From the NCBI GenBank assembly GCA_002163115.1, contig MAAI01000076.1:1-64000 (forward strand): a stretch of 64,000 nucleotides of DNA, given 5' to 3'. The DNA comes from Methylophaga sp. 41_12_T18. Lineage in GTDB: Bacteria; Pseudomonadota; Gammaproteobacteria; Nitrosococcales; Methylophagaceae. The notes beneath the pieces are model-generated. The model did not search any database. It was not told the origin of the DNA and saw nothing but the letters and a program-made list of their open reading frames with translations. The translations under genes were made by a program, and so were the position numbers. Below, in pieces: positions 3,792-9,992 of the stretch. The number at the start of each line of letters is the position of its first letter. The stretch's first letter is position 1.

Positions 3792-4172
3792 TTATTTATC
3801 TTTAATTCTATTTTTCATCAGAACATTAAATGATTCTGCAAGTTCAGAATTATAGTCAGTTTTACGAAATTGAATGTTAGAGCTAGTTTTTCCTTCAGCA
3901 ACTTCATCCATATGCAGTTGAAGGCGGGAAAGTGGCCCTGCGATACAATTCGTTAGCCTTAAGCCATATAAAATACAAGCAAAATAGGCTACTTGGGTAA
4001 TAAGGACAAGATATTGACCATAGGGGGCAATAATATAACTTTCGTTTGCAATATCGTGACTTAGTACGAGTAGTTGAGAGAAAATACACATGCAGACAAT
4101 ATAAATAATAAGATCTATTTGAATCTTAGAGCCTACAAACCATTTTTTTTTATAAAAAGGGACTTTTTTCAT
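3792..4172 (-). CDS. Small two-TM HAMP-domain membrane protein
   Basis: This 126-residue protein has a basic N-terminus, a first membrane segment at about residues 19-38, a short periplasmic loop, a second membrane segment at about 52-72, and then a HAMP-like linker from about 78 (GPLSRLQLHMDEVAEG...) to FNVLM near the end. No kinase, cyclase or methyl-accepting output domain follows. It reads like the input half of a receptor without output, or a partner that joins other receptors by HAMP dimerisation. It stands alone, with about 120 and 200 bases of non-coding DNA on either side. Function unknown. Confidence 0.7.
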   Translation of the reverse strand: MKKVPFYKKKWFVGSKIQIDLIIYIVCMCIFSQLLVLSHDIANESYIIAPYGQYLVLITQVAYFACILYGLRLTNCIAGPLSRLQLHMDEVAEGKTSSNIQFRKTDYNSELAESFNVLMKNRIKDK

Positions 4173-4380: not shown

Positions 4381-5448
4381 TTACCAATCTAAGGGTGTTG
4401 GAATTACTGTGTTATTTAGTTGATGCCGATATAATGAGCTGGCCTTGTACACCACTTGTCTAACTCGGTTTAAAGCACCGATAGGTTTATGTTCTGCTAA
4501 CGAATTCCACGGTGAGAAAGATAAATTTTCACAGAACTGTTGTTGTACTGGGCTATCAAATTTTTGCTTGGGAATAGTGATGGTGGCAACAGGGATATAA
4601 GCTGAATCAGTTTCTTGCCACAATACACTTGGGTCTTCGATCGGCATATGTTTTTTACTGTCTTGTAATTGCACTAACAACTGCATACAAGCTTCGCCAC
4701 TTTCTAGTTCTGCTGACAGTGTTTTCTGCAAGAAGTCTTCATTGCTTTGATCTTGGCCATCGGTACTTATAGCGGGCAGGCAGGATTGCACTTTATATTT
4801 AACGTTATGTGGGCCTAACTTATAGGCGGTATTGCTGAAATACTCATCCCATATTGGGCTATAAGGTGGTGGCGCTAGTGTATCCATCACTTGTGACAAT
4901 TCACGTAATCGCCAATTAAAAGGATTGTAGCCGGGGATGAAGTATTTAACTTTATCAGGGCTTTCGACTAATCCGTTGTAATCAGCTAAGTTGATTGAGA
5001 AAAAGGCTGGACTGTTATGTAATAAAAATTCTTGAGTTTGTTGCTCAACATTGAGCAACTTGATCGCAATACCACGTGAATCATTGTCAGCATCAGCAAC
5101 TATATTGGGTGAACCATTGGAAAAGCGTATCCATGATTTATATTGCTGATTAGCTTGTTTAAAAATACCGTGTTGCAGTGTTGGGCTTAGGTCATCATTA
5201 ATATCGAAATAGGCTTTCACACAAGCATGGCCTTTAGCGTGAGCACCTCGGTGGGCTTTATCGGTTCTGAAACTGTCGATGATATTGATGAAGTTATCGA
5301 CAGAACGTTGAATCTGTTGTTCTTCGTCAGCGGAAATAACTTCTTCAGTGGTAACGATGGCATCACTATATGAATAGTATTCATATAATCCAAAGGTTAA
5401 TACTATTAAAAGTAATAGAGAAAACAGTAGTTTTTTAAATAGTTTCAC
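4381..5448 (-). CDS. Membrane-anchored catalase-fold haem protein
   Basis: This 355-residue protein starts at a GTG 5 bases after the acyltransferase stop. An uncleaved signal anchor spans residues 5-25. The catalase-family haem pocket is visible: GAHAKGHACVKAYF (distal His70), RFSNGSP and DSRGIAIKLL, HNSPAFF (distal Asn145) and RQVVY (Arg330-x3-Tyr334, the proximal ligand pattern). It lacks the N-terminal arm and C-terminal flavodoxin-like or extra domains of full catalases, so it is a minicatalase-type protein. The residue before the distal His is Ala, where true catalases have Val and coral allene oxide synthase has Thr. The substrate is therefore more likely an organic (lipid) peroxide than H2O2; this is inference. 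Last gene of a likely operon with the di-heme protein. Confidence 0.85.
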   Translation of the reverse strand: MKLFKKLLFSLLLLIVLTFGLYEYYSYSDAIVTTEEVISADEEQQIQRSVDNFINIIDSFRTDKAHRGAHAKGHACVKAYFDINDDLSPTLQHGIFKQANQQYKSWIRFSNGSPNIVADADNDSRGIAIKLLNVEQQTQEFLLHNSPAFFSINLADYNGLVESPDKVKYFIPGYNPFNWRLRELSQVMDTLAPPPYSPIWDEYFSNTAYKLGPHNVKYKVQSCLPAISTDGQDQSNEDFLQKTLSAELESGEACMQLLVQLQDSKKHMPIEDPSVLWQETDSAYIPVATITIPKQKFDSPVQQQFCENLSFSPWNSLAEHKPIGALNRVRQVVYKASSLYRHQLNNTVIPTPLDW

Positions 5449-5453
5449 GGGGA

Positions 5454-6734
5454 CTAGCGTCTTAAATTCATCACGGGTTTTTCGATAAATAAATACATCA
5501 ATGCAGCGATGGCGAGACTGAGTACAGTGCTAATAACAAAACCAAAAATCAAGGTTTCAGCCATCGACCAAGGATATTCAGTCGGCATAGTGATGGTCAG
5601 ATTAACCAGTGCAGGAATCACTGCTGACATGACTACCAAATGAATCAAGTATAACGAGTACGATAAGGTGGCGAACGGATACCAAAAGGGCAGTGAAAAG
5701 AAGCTACGCATCATAGTTGCTATCAGATGGGTTTGTAGCAACATGGCGATAATAATGATGCCGATACCGACCGAGAATAAGTTGCGGTTGAAGATGTAAT
5801 ACAGCACATGCACAGTTTGATAGTCATCATAAATCGGCAGGTAATTAGCAAAGCCCATAAAGAAAACAACCATAGCGATACCAATTAAGGTCGTGACAAG
5901 ACCCAAACTGGAATTAAAGAAAGCGATTAACTTATCTTTGTGAAAATGGAAGTTATAAGCCGCCATACAGCCAACTAATAAGCTGCCAAACCGAGTATGT
6001 AAGTTGTCATACAATACGGTAAAGAAATGATTGAAGTAGTCATGGTCAAGATACATACGGCTGCCAGGTGAAGTGCGAAGGGCTTCATCTGACATAACAA
6101 TGCCAAAACGCACTATGAGAGATATCACGAATAACCACAGCATGGTGTAGCCGGGTGATTTGGAATATTTCAAGATAGCAATCAATAACAACGGATAGAT
6201 AAAGTAGAACTGCTCTTCAATGGCTAGGCTCCATGTCCAACCTACGGCTTGGCTGCCATAATCTACAAAATTATTGATATAGAGATAGTTAGCCCAAATA
6301 TTTTCGCTATTAGGTCCGTTTAATAACCAATAGACGGTAAGGGTGAAATAGTAGGCAGGGGTTAATCTTAAATAGCGACGAATATAGAAGTTTTTCAAAT
6401 CCATATGGCCGGTTTTGGCAATTTGTCGAAATAAGATGCCTGAGATTAAAAAGCCACTCATGACAAAAAATACATCTACCCCTTTGTCACCGTTTAATGC
6501 CCAGCCCCAACCTGAGCCAAGTTCATTAATCATCGATTCGACGGTGACAGTTGGGTGTACTAATTGATAAACAAAGAAAGTATGAAAAACTAAAACCAAA
6601 ATAATAGAAACAGCTCGAATACCATCAATAGAAGCATAGTTGGAGGCACGGCGAGTATAGATAGAACGAAAATTTTCTTTAAAAGAAAATGCCCGTTGCA
6701 TCGCTGTTTTTGACATATCAACATCGTGAGACAT
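5454..6734 (-). CDS. Acyltransferase-3 (OafA/YrhL-type) membrane protein
   Basis: This 426-residue integral membrane protein has about ten hydrophobic segments. The acyltransferase-3 signature is at residues ~35-55 (SIDGIRAVSIILVLVFHTFF, with the conserved catalytic-type His), followed by the GVDVFFVMSGFLISG and RRYLRLTPAYY motifs. The late motif is LSYSLYLIH. The family moves acyl groups from a cytoplasmic donor onto extracytoplasmic glycans, lipids or peptides. It sits 12 bases after the di-heme cytochrome gene and 5 bases before the catalase-fold gene, so the three are almost surely co-transcribed. The acceptor is unknown. No lipopolysaccharide or polysaccharide genes lie nearby, which makes an O-antigen role less likely. 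Confidence 0.88.
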   Translation of the reverse strand: MSHDVDMSKTAMQRAFSFKENFRSIYTRRASNYASIDGIRAVSIILVLVFHTFFVYQLVHPTVTVESMINELGSGWGWALNGDKGVDVFFVMSGFLISGILFRQIAKTGHMDLKNFYIRRYLRLTPAYYFTLTVYWLLNGPNSENIWANYLYINNFVDYGSQAVGWTWSLAIEEQFYFIYPLLLIAILKYSKSPGYTMLWLFVISLIVRFGIVMSDEALRTSPGSRMYLDHDYFNHFFTVLYDNLHTRFGSLLVGCMAAYNFHFHKDKLIAFFNSSLGLVTTLIGIAMVVFFMGFANYLPIYDDYQTVHVLYYIFNRNLFSVGIGIIIIAMLLQTHLIATMMRSFFSLPFWYPFATLSYSLYLIHLVVMSAVIPALVNLTITMPTEYPWSMAETLIFGFVISTVLSLAIAALMYLFIEKPVMNLRR

Positions 6735-6746
6735 AACCGGCCCTGC

Positions 6747-8447
6747 CTATAAGGTTTTTAAATATTCGATTAAAGCCCAACGCTCGTCTTCTGTCAGAGC
6801 GGCTTGACCATAAGCCCCCGTGCCATATTCATGGCCGGCATTGCTATTGCCAGGTAACGAGGTATCAAATAAAAAACTAGTGTTGGTAGCTTCGTTTACA
6901 TAACCTAAACCTGTAGGGTCATACTCCCAAGAGCCTAAGAAAAACTTCGCATCTCGTTCTACAGCTGGTAATAACAACTGATACATATTGTGAACAGAGC
7001 CGTTGTGCAAATAAGGCGGACTCGACCAAACACCATTTAACGGCCGTGCTTTATAAGCTAATAAAGCGTGATCAGACACTTCTTGGCCATGTTCAATGAT
7101 TTCTCCATCCACATATTTAGGCGGATGAATCACATCTGGGTGACCTAAAGCCTTAGCATCACGTTTGGCTAAGTAGGCTTGCAAGGGATTATTTTTCAAT
7201 ACACCAATCATCACATTATTCGCGATATAGATGGCTCTGTTTTCTTCGCCTAGTTCAGGGCCGGCAAAGTAAAACTGTTTACGGTCTTTAAATATGCCGC
7301 TTTGGCCTCGATGACCAAGTGCATTTTCAGCCATTAAGGGATCAGTATTTATTTCTGCTAAGGTGCTCATCCGAACCTGAATTTTACGTAGCGGATCAGT
7401 GCGGTCGATATCCACATGACAGGCAATGCAATGTTGCTCATATAAAGTTCGTCCAACTTGAACCTGTTGCTGATCAATAGCTGGAAATTGTTCAGGCCAT
7501 AATGGTGAATGTAATTTAGCGGTTATTTTCTCTAAACCACGTAAATTATCAGCCTGAATAGAAGAGGGGTAGCCGCCATCAATAACACCTAACCACTTGG
7601 TGGTTTCGGTTTCAATCTCACCAAATACGCCAATGGCTTCGCCAATATTTCGAGCAAGAGCACCCACGCCACTATTGGCTTGCGAACCATTCCACTCTAC
7701 ATAATCATGTTGTGGAGTGTCCCATATATAAGGAAAGCTAGTGGCAGCATTTGGAGAATTATAATTACCTGGAACTTGAGTTGCCGATAATGCCTTATTC
7801 AAAATCGCACCAAAGGCATCAAGCCGACTAAAACCATAAGGCGTATCAGTATGATTCATGGTGGCGTAATCGATACGCTTACTGAGTTGTTTAACTAATG
7901 CTGCAGTGAGTTCATCTTTTTGTTGTTGGCTAACATCATCACCTAAGATACGACTTTGAAAGCGAGCTAATTTTTCGCTGTCATCAATGGTGGTTTTGAT
8001 TGAAGTGGTTAGCTCAGTTAAGAACAAACGTAGATCGAGAAAACTTTGACCACCATCAATGCGAATAAACTGATCTTTATATTTAAGCTCTTGGGTATGA
8101 CAGGCCGCACAGGTGATGCCCATATGATCGCCGTTTCTAGCTAAACCGATTGGCAGCCCATCAGGGTTACGATCAGATTTCGCTGTTGGCAAAAAACCAA
8201 AGCTCATCATCTTATCGTCAGTTCTTAATAACTCGGTGTTATCGGCTTGTTCGAGGTTGAGAAAAAGAGCATAAGGAACAAGACGAGAGCCTTGATCGGT
8301 GAAATAGAAATAATCACGGTCAGCAGCATCCCAGTTTTGTTCTATGAATATCGTTTCACGCTCACTAACAGTAGCGGAAAAGGCTGGCGATATTGCTCCA
8401 AGGCTGAACAACAGTGATGCAACAATGCCTAACTTAAAATAATACAT
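6747..8447 (-). CDS. Periplasmic di-heme cytochrome c oxygenase-like protein (RoxA / 10S-DOX type)
   Basis: This 566-residue protein has a cleavable signal peptide (residues 1-25, ending PAFSA). It has two c-type haem sites, CAACH at ~112 and CIACH at ~339. Near the C-terminus it carries KARPLNGVWSSPPYLHNGSV, a hallmark of RoxA-like di-haem proteins. It is longer than the two-haem CcpA/MauG peroxidases. Family members include rubber oxygenase RoxA and the Pseudomonas aeruginosa oleate 10S-dioxygenase and diol synthase, which insert O2 into unsaturated lipids. Ribosome site AGGTAAG precedes the ATG. It is the first gene of the three-gene unit and lies downstream of an LCAT-type lipase. A peroxidase role cannot be excluded. 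Confidence 0.82.
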   Translation of the reverse strand: MYYFKLGIVASLLFSLGAISPAFSATVSERETIFIEQNWDAADRDYFYFTDQGSRLVPYALFLNLEQADNTELLRTDDKMMSFGFLPTAKSDRNPDGLPIGLARNGDHMGITCAACHTQELKYKDQFIRIDGGQSFLDLRLFLTELTTSIKTTIDDSEKLARFQSRILGDDVSQQQKDELTAALVKQLSKRIDYATMNHTDTPYGFSRLDAFGAILNKALSATQVPGNYNSPNAATSFPYIWDTPQHDYVEWNGSQANSGVGALARNIGEAIGVFGEIETETTKWLGVIDGGYPSSIQADNLRGLEKITAKLHSPLWPEQFPAIDQQQVQVGRTLYEQHCIACHVDIDRTDPLRKIQVRMSTLAEINTDPLMAENALGHRGQSGIFKDRKQFYFAGPELGEENRAIYIANNVMIGVLKNNPLQAYLAKRDAKALGHPDVIHPPKYVDGEIIEHGQEVSDHALLAYKARPLNGVWSSPPYLHNGSVHNMYQLLLPAVERDAKFFLGSWEYDPTGLGYVNEATNTSFLFDTSLPGNSNAGHEYGTGAYGQAALTEDERWALIEYLKTL

Positions 8448-8564
8448 GTACTTACCTATTCCTTATCACCTATGAGTTGATTCATAAGCCTGTTTGGGTA
8501 AAGCTAAATATAACTTACTGTTCTAATCGACGTAACGAATGGCTAATTGTTACAAATTGTATGG

Positions 8565-9992
8565 TTAGTCTCGTGAAAGTAGGGTGTTTAAGAGGTTATC
8601 TTGAAAGTTAAGATTACCAGTTAAACTATTATGCGAAACACACAAGAAAAATGAGTTTTTTAGTGGGAAGAAACTATACTCATGACGTTTAATACTTGGA
8701 TCTAAAACATTTCGACCTAATAACGAGGCCTTAGTCACCGAACCATCTCCCGGCTCTAATAACAGTGCATCATAATCCACGCCTTCAGTAGGTTGAGTGA
8801 TTTCATCTGGATGCATGCGAATCATTGATTCACCGTTCACTTCTTCCACCACAATACGAGCGGAAGTGAGTGTACAACCACCACCAAATACAGTGAGCTT
8901 AGGATGTTTTTCAGGCAGTGGAACAGTCAGCGACCAAACAAAACGGCGTGCACGTTCTAGGTGTTTTTCAAAGTAAGCATCCAAGTTAGCAAGGTGTTGG
9001 TCGCTTTCCTCTTTAGTATCAAATTTATCGGCGATGCGTTGTCTGACCTCAGGATCAAAGATCGACCACTGAAAACGCTTCCACACATTGACATCAAATA
9101 GATCACGATCCAGTACCTTGCCTTCACTAGTCACAATCCAATCATTTAATGGGTGAGGGAATAATTGATACAAACTAGGCATGGTTGCCAAGGTTTCAGT
9201 GCCAATTGATTTCAAGCCTATTTTGACGCCATCAATAAATAGATTCAGTGTTTTGACCGAACCTAAGTTAGGCGTGCCGAGTAAAATAACCCGACGCACA
9301 CGCTCGCCACCATACATATTAATTTTTTGGTCAAAATCATTACCATCCAAAACATCTTGTTTGCCATAACGAATGAAGTAACGGGTAATGAGTCCGCCCA
9401 TGCTATGAGCAACAATATCGACTTTCAAATCTGGTTTGTCATAATCGATACGGATTTGATCGACTAACTCAGCTAACTGCCGAGCTGAAATCGTATTATC
9501 TTGTCGCCAGTCATAATGAAATACGTAATAGTTTTTCTGTTTAGGATTTACCTTTTTGCCAGCTTTCGCCAACTGATAACCACCGGTATCACCCAATGTT
9601 CGTACAATCTTGCCGTAGAAATCTTTGCCGACTGCACTGTCTGATATTTCATAGGCTTCGGCATGATTAGGCAAAGGATCTAAGGTGTCAGGATCGATCT
9701 CAAACGCAATATCAGCGTAGTCATGCAGGAATAAGCGAGAAGCAGGACCCGGCCAAAGATCTTGCTCGGTTTTCATATCTTTTAACTTACTGCCCAATAC
9801 GCCATGAACAAAAATGACTGGCGGTTGGTCATCGACCATCATGCTTTCCATATAAAGCCGGTGTAAATCAGGTGCAAACACTTTGTTATTGGCAAAAATA
9901 CCAGCAACAAATACAGCCATTAAAATATAAGCTGCAATCGCATATTTGCTGAACAAGAACAACTTAATCGTTTTGTAAGTAAAGCGAATCAT
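8565..9992 (-). CDS. LCAT-family lipase/acyltransferase, alpha/beta hydrolase
   Basis: This 475-residue protein has an N-terminal membrane anchor (about residues 16-34) and an extracytoplasmic alpha/beta-hydrolase domain. The oxyanion segment is VIFVHGVLGSKL, followed by LWPG. The nucleophile elbow is AHSMGG, with Ser at about 197. The LCAT/phospholipase signature continues in RVRRVILLGTPNLGS. A late acidic segment, LLEPGDGSVTKASLLG, matches the Asp region of this family. Known members cut or transfer the acyl chain of phospholipids. It is 117 bases upstream of the di-heme gene on the same strand, and a lipase feeding fatty acids to an oxygenase is an attractive reading, but a separate promoter is possible. 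Confidence 0.85.
   Translation of the reverse strand: MIRFTYKTIKLFLFSKYAIAAYILMAVFVAGIFANNKVFAPDLHRLYMESMMVDDQPPVIFVHGVLGSKLKDMKTEQDLWPGPASRLFLHDYADIAFEIDPDTLDPLPNHAEAYEISDSAVGKDFYGKIVRTLGDTGGYQLAKAGKKVNPKQKNYYVFHYDWRQDNTISARQLAELVDQIRIDYDKPDLKVDIVAHSMGGLITRYFIRYGKQDVLDGNDFDQKINMYGGERVRRVILLGTPNLGSVKTLNLFIDGVKIGLKSIGTETLATMPSLYQLFPHPLNDWIVTSEGKVLDRDLFDVNVWKRFQWSIFDPEVRQRIADKFDTKEESDQHLANLDAYFEKHLERARRFVWSLTVPLPEKHPKLTVFGGGCTLTSARIVVEEVNGESMIRMHPDEITQPTEGVDYDALLLEPGDGSVTKASLLGRNVLDPSIKRHEYSFFPLKNSFFLCVSHNSLTGNLNFQDNLLNTLLSRD

Follow-up and report, generated by a model that had tools for sequence, protein, structure and literature searches.

Four adjacent genes in a 64,000-nucleotide stretch of Methylophaga sp. 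41_12_T18 (contig MAAI01000076.1, positions 1 to 64,000; hereafter the window) may encode a periplasm-facing unit for fatty-acid oxygenation, a reading to which, judging from sequence, we give a probability of about 0.5. The conserved core of this cluster is a pair of haem proteins, a di-haem cytochrome c (DIHEME) and a catalase-fold protein (CAT), which extends far beyond methylotrophs; the accompanying lipase (LCAT) and acyltransferase (AT3) are a methylotroph addition. The window is part of a 2.43-Mb draft genome (contig label C93), the closest named relatives of which are Methylophaga sp. and Piscirickettsiaceae metagenome-assembled genomes, with some scaffolds labelled Methylophagaceae. 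An earlier note on this DNA had described four minus-strand genes at 4381-9992, the last three lying 12 and 5 bases apart, and the open reading frames (ORFs) were indeed recovered there:

8565-9992, minus strand: LCAT, an LCAT-type serine lipase/acyltransferase of 475 amino acids (PF02450 and hydropathy)
8448-8564, minus strand: LCAT-DIHEME gap of 117 bases, with no terminator-like site found
6747-8447, minus strand: DIHEME, a secreted, RoxA-like di-haem cytochrome c of the NF040606 family, 566 amino acids (profiles, motifs and hydropathy)
5454-6734, minus strand: AT3, an acyltransferase-3 integral membrane protein of 426 amino acids (PF01757 and hydropathy)
4381-5448, minus strand: CAT, a membrane-anchored catalase-fold haem protein of 355 amino acids with a GTG start (PF00199 and haem-site residues)

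None of the three intergenic gaps (LCAT-DIHEME, 117 bases; DIHEME-AT3, 12 bases; AT3-CAT, 5 bases) contained a terminator-like site, in a scan that reports promoter- and terminator-like sites about as often in shuffled DNA. The counterpart of the 117-base gap measured at most 25 bases in 10/10 related loci, as given by first-start ORF calls, in which starts are perhaps placed too early. Judged by hydropathy rather than by a dedicated signal-peptide program, CAT and LCAT each have a single N-terminal hydrophobic segment (residues 11-29 in LCAT), taken as an anchor, the N-terminus of DIHEME is signal-peptide-like and AT3 has several membrane segments, so that all four proteins could act at or outside the inner membrane. 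There, the anchored LCAT would free an acyl chain from a membrane lipid. DIHEME, as a secreted RoxA-group oxygenase, could bind the carboxylate of an unsaturated fatty acid through two invariant arginines of its distal pocket and add O2 to give a hydroperoxide, which the anchored CAT, with its tyrosine-ligated haem and His/Asn distal site, might convert as a lyase, isomerase or peroxygenase. Finally, AT3 might acylate an acceptor with the product, or else protect or export it. Such a pathway is plausible from the sequences, with its two middle steps strengthened by the present analysis and the acyltransferase step the weakest.

Pfam and NCBI profiles placed all four proteins above cut-off in the families that the earlier note had proposed (LCAT lipase, RoxA-group di-haem protein, acyltransferase-3 and catalase fold). 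DIHEME matched NF040606 (di-heme-cytochrome C peroxidase) with 553.7 bits (cut-off 150) over model positions 1-524 of 524, and the RoxA-like family PF21419 with 47.4 bits (cut-off 26.7). The family that we take to be named CCP_MauG in Pfam gave no DIHEME match among six Pfam families at E ≤ 0.1, so that, given the RoxA-group matches, the grouping with bacterial cytochrome c peroxidases that would have refuted the earlier note was not seen. The protein carries the haem motifs CAACH (residues 113-117; His117) and CIACH (340-344; His344), a PYLHNGSV motif (His481) and a C-terminal His539 that aligns with RoxA His641, and its second haem is probably bis-histidine-ligated. The two CXXCH, MauG-type PYxHNGSV and C-terminal axial histidine listed for the secreted RoxA-group di-haem proteins termed FadCcp are thus present. 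According to passages of PMC4496055, FadCcp comprises PA2077 and PA2078, the oleate diol synthase of Pseudomonas aeruginosa; PA2077 is the 10S-dioxygenase (10S-DOX), and changing either of its haem histidines abolishes oleate turnover.

To relate the distal pocket to RoxA, RoxA numbering was bridged to DIHEME via RoxB-like proteins and a MAFFT alignment (57 rows). The positions of RoxA Ala251 and Ala316 are occupied by Arg208 and Arg266, each Arg in 57/57 rows, where RoxB-like rows have Ala or Gly at the former and Ala at the latter. At the position of RoxA Phe301, also Phe in RoxB-like rows, DIHEME has Glu251 (45 Gln and 12 Glu among the 57), and RoxA Trp302 corresponds to Trp252 (43 Trp, 14 Tyr). 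The residue statements in passages of PMC4496055 give F301Q for both P. aeruginosa enzymes, and A316K with the Trp kept for PA2077; DIHEME therefore shares with PA2077 the Trp302 equivalent, a Gln/Glu in place of Phe301 and a cationic residue in place of Ala316. By this comparison, the cationic pocket of DIHEME appears to resemble that of the fatty-acid enzyme more closely than that of the rubber enzyme, Asn267 excepted (see below). With the RoxA/RoxB rubber oxygenases (PDB 4b2n), DIHEME has in common the C-terminal half and the His641 and Trp302 equivalents; unlike them it has a cationic pocket, falls in a separate clade and scores only 45.5-55.2 bits against the RoxA, RoxB and RoxC equivalog models, far below their cut-offs of 900-1000. 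On these cut-offs and pocket residues, RoxA-type rubber cleavage was rejected for DIHEME.

CAT matched PF00199 (Catalase) with 39.1 bits (cut-off 25; E = 6.6e-10) over residues 60-151 alone. It also matched PDB 3e4w along most of the length of the latter, an entry titled 'Putative uncharacterized protein' that we take to be the minimal catalase MAP2744c, likewise a short catalase-fold protein. The haem site of CAT is complete, with Arg67, His70, Arg108 and Asn145 on the distal and Arg330-x3-Tyr334-x6-Arg341 on the proximal side. Across 66 aligned rows, the four arginines are invariant (66/66), and Tyr334, His70 and Asn145 are kept in 63, 56 and 46 rows, respectively; His70 gives way to Asn in five rows linked to DyP, to Gln in two linked to a peroxidase and to Phe in three linked to LodA. 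The earlier note had likened CAT to coral allene oxide synthase (AOS), a catalase-related AOS/hydroperoxide lyase for which passages of PMC5617202 name the residues R64, H67, T66, R102, N137, Y353 and R360 (1u5u). CAT is of the catalase family by profile and has counterparts of R64, H67, R102, N137, Y353 and R360; the comparison nevertheless fails at Thr66, which corresponds to Ala69 in the window and to Val in three Methylophilaceae rows. Moreover, the CAT profile matched 1u5u weakly (E = 0.0073), and CAT carries no lipoxygenase fusion.

LCAT matched PF02450 with 50.8 bits (cut-off 21; E = 2e-13), and AHSMGG around Ser197, Asp416 within GDGSV and His454, presumably the catalytic triad, are kept in all nine rows, except for an X in L046. 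AT3 matched PF01757 (Acyl_transf_3) with 91.4 bits (cut-off 31; E = 7e-26), and its Arg40 and His51, which we take to form the RX10H motif, are invariant across the aligned rows.

Two genome draws revealed how far the haem pair extends. In the class draw (369 genomes), the CAT profile A2 found CAT in 15/369 genomes and NF040606 scored above its cut-off in 19/369, with both present in six (G000, G095, G182, G231, G294 and G390); fragmentary CAT matches of G105, G124 and G212 were left out of the neighbourhoods. The two genes were adjacent in four of the six, with AT3 between them in G000 and stop and start codons nearly touching in G182, G294 and G390. Given that DIHEME exceeds the cut-off in only ~5% of genomes, chance adjacency to CAT should be very rare. 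In the phylum draw (398 genomes), a broader CAT profile, A7, matched 42 genomes at E ≤ 1e-15. For 40 of these (all except G000 and G051), ORFs in every frame were read over the 10-19 kb surrounding the top-scoring CAT; additional CAT matches in G680, G532 (two), G540 (two) and G563 stood outside the counts. These loci were chosen by the CAT profile, blind to neighbours, adjacency being no selection criterion. DIHEME adjoined CAT on the same strand in 19/40 loci, upstream in 18 and downstream in L165, a count that A7 may favour because it contained rows from DIHEME-paired loci. Other partners were DyP-like proteins (6/40) and LodA (2/40).

The CAT tree (66 rows) has a 29-row clade that includes the window (support 99/96) and in which every member is DIHEME-paired; its sister comprises L130, where CAT lies beside a COX-like peroxidase, and the DIHEME-paired L165. 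In the DIHEME tree (61 rows with a RoxB-like outgroup; the divergent or fragmentary L123_3080, L124_8973, L124_10525, L125_4420 and L182_4750 left out), DIHEME is separate from the RoxB-like clade, and the methylotroph group (12 rows, 100/100) stands apart from the other main paired group (20 rows, 97/91). A single clade of these 12 and 20 rows was rejected (log-likelihood difference 109.7; approximately unbiased test, p = 3.8e-8, an optimistic value since the grouping was chosen with a preliminary quick tree already in view), and the paired state requires at least five changes over 53 rows. That CAT retains a di-haem partner even though these partners stem from separate lineages speaks for a functional coupling of the two. 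We tentatively propose, with rather less confidence than for the unit in the window, that the DIHEME-CAT pair constitutes an oxylipin system widespread among bacteria but so far unrecognised, in which a cytochrome c dioxygenase of the periplasm would form a fatty-acid hydroperoxide for its dedicated catalase-fold partner to convert into a signal, volatile or defence compound; CAT would have kept to one clade while its di-haem partner was swapped between lineages, and methylotrophs would have added lipase and acyltransferase to make a self-contained unit.

The complete four-gene order was traced by a profile scan of genome contigs with the DIHEME alignment, which returned 17 loci: 12 in methylotroph records (59-82% identity) and five distant ones (30-37%; L048-L052) with no LCAT, AT3 or CAT nearby. 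Including the window, 13 methylotroph records were examined, and the full order LCAT-DIHEME-AT3-CAT is present in 8/13, namely the window, L037, L038, L040, L041, L043, L045 and L047 (in the last, which contains N stretches, DIHEME is split over two frames). Its carriers belong to the Methylophaga group/Methylophagaceae and to Methylotenera. Recurrence in seven further loci shows that the arrangement is not due to chance. In the other records, the contig ends within AT3 (L039 and L046), AT3 is truncated and CAT absent (L036), the record begins inside DIHEME with CAT directly next and no AT3 (L044), or DIHEME is accompanied by a weak LCAT-like fragment only (L042). Within the family, LCAT was found in 8/57 genomes (G000, G001, G016, G018, G022, G029, G785 and G793) and AT3 in the same eight plus one weak match in G795, with AT3 incomplete in G001 (97 residues) and G793 (contig end). 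CAT occurred in six of the eight, being absent from G001 and G793, and DIHEME was found in G000, G001, G016, G018, G022 and G029 of the family (in a search of 58 genomes, 35 of them of the family). LCAT, AT3 and CAT were each absent from all 24 g2 genomes. The four genes are therefore distributed all-or-none within the family genomes, and the co-occurrence of the four families on which the earlier note had staked its interpretation is borne out.

NCBI places Methylotenera/Methylophilaceae in another proteobacterial class than Methylophagaceae, so either the block has passed between the two lineages or it is old. In four g4 loci (L031-L034), it adjoins a run of presumably recC-like and recB-like genes that lies elsewhere in the window, indicating that its genomic site varies between genera. 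In G001, of the same genus (L030:9902-14575 / L036), AT3 stops after ~97 codons, CAT is gone and an adhesin-like ORF follows, possibly as a result of deletion or misassembly. Among the loci read, LCAT and AT3 were found only in the methylotroph version of the cluster.

Most descriptions of bacterial oxylipins concern P. aeruginosa and cyanobacteria. In Nostoc punctiforme, a 10S-DOX and a catalase-related 10S-hydroperoxide lyase are encoded by separate genes (Brash et al. 2014, as reported in passages of PMC13049297), and an Anabaena catalase-lipoxygenase fusion is mentioned in a passage of PMC11719350. The Nostoc system, so far as those passages describe it, resembles the cluster in joining a bacterial fatty-acid dioxygenase to a catalase-related protein, and some CAT relatives do adjoin COX-like haem peroxidases: animal-type enzymes lie beside CAT in L130 (Methylobacterium currus), L105 and L181 (a DyP-type locus in which a second CAT adjoins the peroxidase), and at L109:9356-12622 a catalase-fold domain is fused N-terminally to an animal haem peroxidase (PF03098) in one chain. 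In contrast to Nostoc, the putative oxygenase of the cluster is an unrelated, periplasm-facing di-haem cytochrome c accompanied by lipase and acyltransferase; in contrast to FadCcp as described in the P. aeruginosa passages, where the second step falls to another di-haem protein, the cluster has a catalase-fold protein. A dioxygenase with a catalase-fold enzyme is thus an already known bacterial kind; a version in which a di-haem cytochrome c takes the place of the dioxygenase, joined by lipase and acyltransferase, did not turn up in the literature searched. Across the open-access literature searched (titles, abstract openings and passages; most subscription papers lie outside it), neither the DIHEME-CAT pair nor the four-gene set is described, in line with what the earlier note had stated of the latter. 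Overall, the earlier interpretation is partly supported: its idea of a dioxygenase followed by a catalase-fold enzyme is strengthened by the widespread pair and by the COX-like neighbours of CAT, while the coral analogy is not supported.

Lipid-related neighbours appear beside other members of the two families. At L118:8964-12550, a lipoxygenase gene (PF00305, E = 9.5e-59) overlaps that of DIHEME, and the symbiotic plasmid pNGR234a of Sinorhizobium fredii NGR234 (L125:4423-11934) carries in a row a truncated diheme gene, a catalase gene, a hypothetical gene, an intact diheme gene and a gene for a patatin-like phospholipase. Among the 19 class-draw genomes with DIHEME, the adjacent ORF is of P450 type in five (G090, G095, G180, G231 and G333), a lipoxygenase in one (G322) and CAT in four; for the remaining nine, eight neighbourhoods were read by eye and L114 stood outside the count.

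Several observations weigh against fatty-acid oxygenation. The RoxA Phe317 position is Asn267 in DIHEME and Asn in 56/57 rows (by sequence alignment only), which also departs from FadCcp, and the whole pocket mapping rests on alignment in a divergent region; hhalign, at a probability of 99.6%, linked DIHEME to RoxB-like proteins over the C-terminal half only. AlphaFold2 models were too poor for assessing the pockets (mean predicted local distance difference test 59.5 for DIHEME, 15 rows, and 47.4 for CAT, nine rows) and a Foldseek search with the DIHEME model returned no match below E 0.001; our conclusions draw on no structure model. No recognised partner was found in 13/40 CAT loci, and many DIHEMEs have no recognised lipid partner, as in L048-L052, Rhizobium (S8 peptidases adjacent) and Ruegeria (alone). 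P450s beside other DIHEMEs keep the ordinary monooxygenase motifs ETT and FGxGxHxCLG and have no signal segment by eye, so that a role as CYP74-like hydroperoxide users is unsupported. Lastly, at L110:2-2923 and L198:6851-9808 the CAT domain forms part of a fusion with LodA-type lysine epsilon-oxidase domains, suggesting that some CAT relatives serve H2O2 producers; the distal His is Phe there, however, which weakens a simple H2O2-catalase explanation.

The main rival is membrane lipid-peroxide repair, a detoxification that fits the same four genes: LCAT would excise peroxidised chains, DIHEME would reduce lipid hydroperoxides with cytochrome c electrons, CAT would remove H2O2 or organic peroxide and AT3 would re-acylate. 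The NCBI family name of DIHEME is indeed that of a peroxidase, its distal arginines could serve peroxidase chemistry too, and the DyP-like proteins accompanying CAT relatives in 6/40 loci are of a peroxide-using family; CAT has Ala or Val at coral Thr66, and T66V confers some catalase activity on coral AOS (passages of PMC5617202). Against this, DIHEME belongs to the RoxA group, whose characterised members are oxygenases or a hydroperoxide isomerase according to passages of PMC4496055, the sister pair of the paired CAT clade includes L130 beside a COX-like peroxidase, of the family that makes hydroperoxides in Nostoc, and patchy occurrence (8/57 family genomes) is unusual for general stress repair. 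We regard repair as less likely than oxygenation. Less probable still is an oxidative attack on a hydrophobic substrate other than a fatty acid (an isoprenoid, polyene or exogenous hydrocarbon), in which CAT would guard the oxygenase by scavenging peroxide: RoxA and RoxB, which have the C-terminal domain in common with DIHEME, cleave polyisoprene, and rhizobial DIHEMEs lack lipid genes nearby, but the RoxA/B/C cut-offs are missed widely (45-55 bits versus 900-1000), the DIHEME pocket is polar and cationic at positions that are hydrophobic in RoxA-like rows, and the lipase in the window and the patatin-like and lipoxygenase neighbours point to acyl lipids. Acyltransferase-3 proteins acylate surface glycans, and LCAT and AT3, confined to the methylotroph version, might together modify an envelope glycan or lipid with the haem proteins in a loosely related redox role, but this is the most improbable of the readings, as conservation of DIHEME-CAT without LCAT and AT3 makes the redox pair central rather than incidental.

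If fatty-acid oxygenation by the cluster holds, fatty-acid hydroperoxide chemistry would be common in the bacterial periplasm, carried by di-haem and catalase-fold pairs across Pseudomonadota, and two large families labelled 'peroxidase' and 'catalase family protein' would acquire a likely joint function. It would add a further solution to those of lipoxygenase with CYP74 and of lipoxygenase or COX-like dioxygenase with catalase-related enzymes, point to a hitherto unrecognised way for bacteria to make oxidised-lipid signals or defences, and provide a compact system for studying how lipase, oxygenase and hydroperoxide enzyme are coupled. Were detoxification true instead, a dedicated envelope lipid-peroxide system would have been named.

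A few further genes lie around these loci. In the window, positions 3792-4172 encode a 126-residue protein that shows two hydrophobic stretches when read by eye, ends in a HAMP-like region (E 0.03, short of the Pfam cut-off) and lacks an output domain. P450-type genes lie beside NF040606 genes at L035:11749-12951, L073:1-1203, L111:11563-12888, L120:11434-12699, L121:1531-2787 and L122:7861-9120, and near DIHEME, with a regulator between, in Methylobacterium oryzae (L126:8043-9335). CAT occurs with a DyP-like gene in L105, L106, L166, L180, L181, L190, L199 and L200, with Asn for the distal His in five; all of these loci but L200 also encode relatives of a ~434-residue protein for which the copy tested (L106) had no Pfam match, and the set looks like a separate, uncharacterised cluster. 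Finally, an SMP-30/gluconolactonase-like gene stands directly upstream of DIHEME-CAT in five loci (L100-L102, L162 and L164).

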